A stretch of 36,372 nucleotides of DNA, taken from IMG/VR virus record IMGVR_UViG_3300025168_016496, positions 1-36,372 of that record; one strand, given 5' to 3'. Positions 32,743 to 32,817 of the stretch are shown here, in pieces. This DNA is from a virus. The notes below the pieces were generated by a model, which saw only the letters and a list, made by a program, of their open reading frames with translations, had not been told where the DNA came from and searched no databases. Numbering within the stretch: position 1 is the first letter of the stretch; each line of letters begins with the position of its first letter. The position numbers were made by a program, and so were the translations under genes.

Positions 32743-32817
32743 TTATTTAGCTGCAACGTACATTGTTATTTCAAAACCAAATCTTAAATCTGTTGCTGTA
32801 GGTTTGCTCCACTTCAT
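32743..32817 (-). CDS. pqqA: PqqA-like peptide (PQQ precursor / RiPP precursor)
   Basis: A 24-codon gene. The peptide reads [20 protein letters not shown] followed by VAAK. It closely follows the PqqA pattern (M-W-x-KP, DLRxGFEVTxY), including Glu16 and Tyr20 separated by three residues, the pair that PqqE crosslinks to start pyrroloquinoline quinone synthesis. A strong ribosome site (AAGGAG) lies 6 nt before the ATG, and a tetraloop terminator follows the stop. A TATAAT lies at 32869-32874 without a good -35. No pqqB-E genes are in the window, so host enzymes would be needed. Short length limits certainty. Confidence 0.85.
   Translation of the reverse strand: [24 protein letters not shown]

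Follow-up and report, generated by a model that had tools for sequence, protein, structure and literature searches.

In PQQ synthesis, PqqE acting with PqqD crosslinks a Glu to a Tyr in PqqA, and PqqB and PqqC then carry the product on to PQQ; each PQQ made costs one PqqA, while the enzymes are catalytic and reused. Cyanophages are known to supply the part of the host machinery that is depleted most rapidly, namely psbA (D1 protein). Whether a phage-borne PqqA had been described before was left open by an earlier note on the DNA presented here. One report exists, on the Lake Baikal phage VP_266, which carries PqqA together with a methanol dehydrogenase and for which a methylotroph host was predicted, its PqqA being considered an auxiliary metabolic gene with a proposed enhancement of methanol oxidation (Coutinho et al. 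2020, PMC7678222). A 2026 paper also counts pqqA, pqqE and pqqD among reservoir viral genes (PMC13188868).

The stretch analysed here (hereafter the window) comprises 36,372 bases; it is a virus record from IMG/VR and contains replication genes of T4 type. The features at its pqqA locus are as follows, L003 being a 44,951-base record and the closest viral relative of the window:

32743..32817, minus strand: phage pqqA, 24 codons plus stop, a complete frame that matches PF08042 and TIGR02107
32824..32829, minus strand: Shine-Dalgarno AAGGAG, 6 nt upstream of the pqqA ATG, as read from the sequence
32705..32726, minus strand: intrinsic terminator directly after pqqA, with a 9-bp stem, a UUCG loop and a T run
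31720..32679, minus strand: membrane protein of 319 aa, lying downstream of pqqA and frequent in uncultured marine phages
31283..31666, plus strand: ErpA/IscA-like Fe-S insertion protein, a context gene whose L003 homologue passes the ErpA model

The earlier note had claimed a pqqA-like gene at this place and proposed a search with the PqqA-family models as a check: the coordinates are exact, on the minus strand, and the peptide clears both curated models over their full length, with 38.4 bits for PF08042 (cut-off 21.1; E 1.1e-9; model positions 1-19 of 19) and 38.3 bits for TIGR02107 (cut-off 20; E 8.3e-10; model positions 1-21 of 21). The frame runs from an ATG start to a TAA stop, the plus strand across the same interval being interrupted as a reading frame, and it encodes a full-length PqqA in which Glu16 and Tyr20 are both present, at the E-x3-Y spacing of the crosslinked pair. 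The chance expectation of the PqqA-core DNA pattern in the window is 0.00, and no PHROGs family was matched by the window 24-mer. The strong Shine-Dalgarno and the private tetraloop terminator, seen by the same note, are also there. A Shine-Dalgarno core stands before 154 of the 155 viral pqqA starts, whereas only 9% of random ATGs have one. The stability of the window terminator hairpin reaches a z of -3.6 (0 of 200 shuffles as stable), with a counterpart in L003 that has the same position and form but a different stem sequence (z -3.5). No Rfam elements were found in the window.

This pqqA sits in a true viral genome and is not host contamination, because the DNA polymerase of the window is of T4 type (phrog_262 match, 953 bits), pqqA is comparably placed in L003, and cultured phages carry pqqA as well. 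L003 aligns with the window at 82% over 3.66 kb and at 81% over the pqqA stretch (32683-32939), pqqA itself showing five synonymous differences and one nonsynonymous, and in both genomes DUF6552-like and 5'-nucleotidase-like genes lie upstream of pqqA. The 319-aa membrane protein gene occurs in 428 viral stretches, most of which are devoid of a nearby pqqA: the motif was found in 8 of the best 80 of these loci, and the model detected pqqA in one of 50 further whole records with this gene. More than 20 further T4-like loci have pqqA close to RegA-like and Hsp20-like genes; in the window these two genes (9286-9777 and 9832-10254) are separated by 54 bases, with no pqqA there. Such different sites on related T4-like backbones argue for independent acquisition, and these arrangements indicate that pqqA has probably been gained repeatedly, and retained, by viruses.

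Two other parts of the window deserve mention. Divergently from pqqA, a 20-codon plus-strand frame at 32881-32943, MSWLKSLVNTILGETHQLLK, has DNA that is largely conserved in L003, and may be either a small gene or promoter sequence. The minus strand from 12285 to 28979 holds, in this T4-like phage, a long block of nucleotide-sugar, aminotransferase, glycosyltransferase-like and thiamine-diphosphate (acetolactate-synthase-like) genes.

The gene is widespread among viruses. At least 120 IMG/VR stretches with pqqA were detected by a degenerate DNA pattern for its core, and the peptide is 23-25 residues long in 154 of 155 viral copies. Among 50,697 annotated phage genomes, the true phage matches were one uncultured phage, from Manatee Spring, and nine Methylophilales phage records (Venkman, four of Melnitz, MEP301, MEP401, MEP402 and P19250A), a count of matching records and not a full census of Methylophilales phages. 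All five OM43 phage isolates named in PMC10580990 carry pqqA, and they span different groups, Venkman, MEP301 and Melnitz representing three distinct ones and MEP401/402 belonging to the Zobellviridae (PMC10580990). The gene is unannotated in the Venkman, P19250A and MEP402 records, and in Melnitz-1 (MZ577095.1 74848-74943; L239:3967-4062) an antisense hypothetical gene is annotated over an intact pqqA. The main texts of the Venkman and MEP401/402 papers do not mention PQQ, and in the Melnitz paper it figures only among the medium ingredients; in the open-access literature, no publication was found that notes PqqA in cultured methylophages or its viral breadth. Viral PqqA as such is already known, and it is its breadth, its precursor-only pattern and its matching to hosts that look unreported. 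Two matching records named 'Acinetobacter phage MD-2021a' were rejected as phage, the one that was opened being a bacterial pqqA-BCDE locus; in CAKLQF020000010.1 (L241), which bears this label, there are ppk and a pqqA after which come pqqB, C and D and a gene of the radical SAM type, and the record is apparently a bacterial contig inside a phage collection.

For constraint on the peptide, a second viral scan relied on a pattern for the N-terminal half only, leaving Glu, Tyr and their neighbours free, and in the copies recovered without requiring either residue both are invariant, as the reading in the earlier note required of related phages (Glu in 123 of 123 and Tyr in 122 of 122 readable copies). 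Nonsynonymous change, on which that reading could also have failed, is strongly depleted in the search-free half, with a pN/pS of 0.03 for close pairs and 0.17 for all pairs of the 98 distinct sequences, some viral copies being near-identical populations and all counts being of sequences rather than independent events. Viral pqqA is under strong purifying selection.

The earlier note had also supposed that the phage supplies the precursor only, and this holds across the viral records. Neither PqqE nor a PQQ methanol/ethanol-family dehydrogenase was found over cut-off in any of 50 viral records with pqqA, several of them longer than 100 kb, and host PqqB, C, D, E and XoxF gave no match by tblastn against about 330 viral loci; many viral records are fragments, for which absence in a single record is weak, but the pattern is uniform. 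The neighbours of pqqA in L003 introduce a possible metabolic context:

L003:5474-6664, minus strand: NAD-dependent formate dehydrogenase, directly downstream of pqqA (NF005750, 635.6 bits, cut-off 329)
L003:6922-7488, minus strand: di-haem-type cytochrome c, upstream of pqqA

The formate dehydrogenase beside pqqA is suggestive of a C1 link for L003, and of no general rule. Formate dehydrogenase is present in 3 of 50 pqqA records versus 0 of 50 controls, which are too few for significance, and a C1 cassette of pqqA and formate dehydrogenase was rejected as a rule, since pqqA lies within about 10 kb of only one of 80 viral formate dehydrogenase loci; formate dehydrogenase is kept out of the mechanism below for the same reason. 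Formate dehydrogenase also occurs in the L159 record, and in about 86 viral stretches overall, and in L303, a relative, an IscU-like gene adjoins it.

On the bacterial side, a scan of 84,980 species genomes with this PqqA type as pattern returned 50 stretches, nearly all titled as Betaproteobacteria lineages. The exceptions were two records whose titles say no more than Proteobacteria or Pseudomonadota, and three contigs (L274, L279 and L285) of one MAG titled Klebsiella pneumoniae (CAMDGF01), whose PqqA peptides are of betaproteobacterial type and whose title is perhaps wrong. The nearest bacterial peptides to the window PqqA are those of TMED82/TMED100, and also TMED41; the window differs from TMED82/TMED100 by S for T and one extra N-terminal Lys, and shares with them, as does L003, the same PqqA signature. 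The ErpA-like gene of the window has 72-77% DNA identity to TMED41/TMED100, and its protein has its best match in a TMED100 genome (G005) among 399 sampled Burkholderiales genomes, by a margin so small that this is a weak host clue. From these two genes we infer, with moderate confidence, that the host is a marine betaproteobacterium of the TMED41/82/100 type. OM43 was rejected as host of the window because the PqqA signature of its phages (E-M...VMNK) differs, TMED41/82/100-type bacteria being the better candidates.

The earlier note had made its reading depend on a host lineage with pqqBCDE, and the best candidates for this presumed host do have PqqE, which scored above cut-off in each of the 10 genomes checked whose PqqA is near-identical; in 7 of these a PQQ alcohol dehydrogenase did so too. 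One operon (L465) encodes PqqB, C, D and E, all above NCBIfam cut-offs, and TMED82 has contiguous pqqA, B, C, D and E with, 9 kb on, a methanol/ethanol-family PQQ dehydrogenase that we read as probably XoxF-like. Methylophilales phages carry another PqqA signature (Venkman, P19250A), which matches that of G476, a 1.33-Mb Methylophilales genome with pqqBCDE and xoxF that we take, from its size and gene content, to be a Methylophilaceae methylotroph. The two pqqA copies found in it both lie away from pqqBCDE, and the stretch before pqqB is without pqqA; PqqA supply in trans therefore looks normal there, and the phage gene would provide PqqA in trans, as a G476-type host already uses it. By inspection, the neighbours of orphan host pqqA include no consistent functional partner. 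Solitary copies are known from the literature as well, a published methylotroph having five pqqA copies, three of them solitary (PMC9851590).

Taken together, these observations lead us to propose that the phage resupplies PqqA so that host enzymes keep making PQQ during infection, a reading to which we give a probability of about 0.72. The phage gene would yield an authentic PqqA precursor in the infected cell, host PqqD/PqqE would crosslink it, and host PqqB/PqqC would finish PQQ. In a cell whose transcription the phage has shut down, phage-made PqqA would resupply PQQ synthesis, and the supply so kept would leave periplasmic PQQ dehydrogenases (XoxF-type methanol/alcohol) loaded and electrons flowing during infection. 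As PqqA is used one to one per PQQ and the enzymes are reused, a phage need bring PqqA alone. Expression of the gene, crosslinking by host PqqE, a rise in PQQ and a benefit for the phage are steps that we infer from the genomes, and the link between phage pqqA and C1 oxidation is a weak one. The model match, the Glu/Tyr conservation, the substitution pattern and host PqqE, the four points at which the earlier note had seen its own reading as open to refutation, were all examined, and none turned against it.

Several other explanations have to be weighed. The phage PqqA may be, as the earlier note had also suggested, a RiPP-like substrate with a new use. By analogy with E. coli, where PqqU is a phage receptor and PQQ stops infection by a PqqU-targeting phage (PMC12124388), PQQ or the PqqE-crosslinked peptide could serve in competition between phages, for instance by occupying a PqqU-like TonB receptor from the outside and thereby blocking superinfection. 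A PqqA-annotated peptide family is co-expressed with defence systems in ocean data (PMC11118758), which is in line with such a role, and we nevertheless regard it as rather improbable. The earlier note had envisaged that the phage would boost, divert or jam host PQQ synthesis: boosting is the best fit, and the retention of both reactive residues counts against jamming. A decoy that occupies PqqD/PqqE unproductively, lowering PQQ and diverting carbon or electrons, would account for viral records that carry the precursor only, and PqqD could, in principle, be titrated by overexpression of a substrate-like peptide; however, a decoy has no need of the reactive Glu and Tyr, which, like the remainder of the core, are invariant, and neither the low pN/pS nor the match of phage PqqA sequences to host PqqA is expected of it, making it a highly improbable explanation. 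That pqqA is a recent host-derived passenger without function is scarcely credible in spite of its patchy presence among relatives with the 319-aa gene, given the purifying selection and Glu/Tyr invariance described above, the Shine-Dalgarno and terminator of its own, and its different positions in related T4-like backbones and presence in unrelated virus groups, which speak for repeated gain and retention.

If resupply of PqqA is the correct reading, its reach could be considerable. In abundant bacteria of coasts and fresh waters, PQQ/XoxF enzymes handle methanol and other C1 compounds, and if methylotroph phages commonly carry an overlooked PQQ precursor, the lack of a 24-codon gene call has hidden viral control of C1 oxidation. 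A bolder generalization, which we consider unlikely, is that most or even all phages infecting PQQ-dependent betaproteobacteria of aquatic habitats might have converged on carrying PqqA alone, either to replace the one consumable of the pathway or to close a PQQ-import receptor to competitors by means of extra PQQ or a crosslinked peptide; if true, the closing of a PQQ receptor would give a cofactor precursor a new use, in competition among phages. The role of pqqA is testable in existing cultures, namely H5P1 with Venkman or Melnitz, and FZCC0133 with MEP401/402.

Compared with known systems, the window peptide shares with the PqqA of bacterial operons (PF08042/TIGR02107) its length, W-x-K-P start, core, Glu-x3-Tyr and basic C-terminus, and the phage version differs in being a solitary gene without pqqB-E. 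Like the window, VP_266 is a T4-like phage with a viral PqqA; in contrast, it has a methanol dehydrogenase, while a PQQ alcohol dehydrogenase is present in 0 of the 50 viral pqqA records examined here, and its description concerned one population (PMC7678222), against the broad viral spread reported above. Venkman, Melnitz, MEP301, MEP401, MEP402 and P19250A have an intact PqqA-like frame, as the window does, in different virus groups. The cyanophage psbA is similar, by analogy only, in that the phage likewise supplies the component of the host machinery that is used fastest; its product, however, is a protein subunit, whereas PqqA is the consumed precursor of a cofactor.
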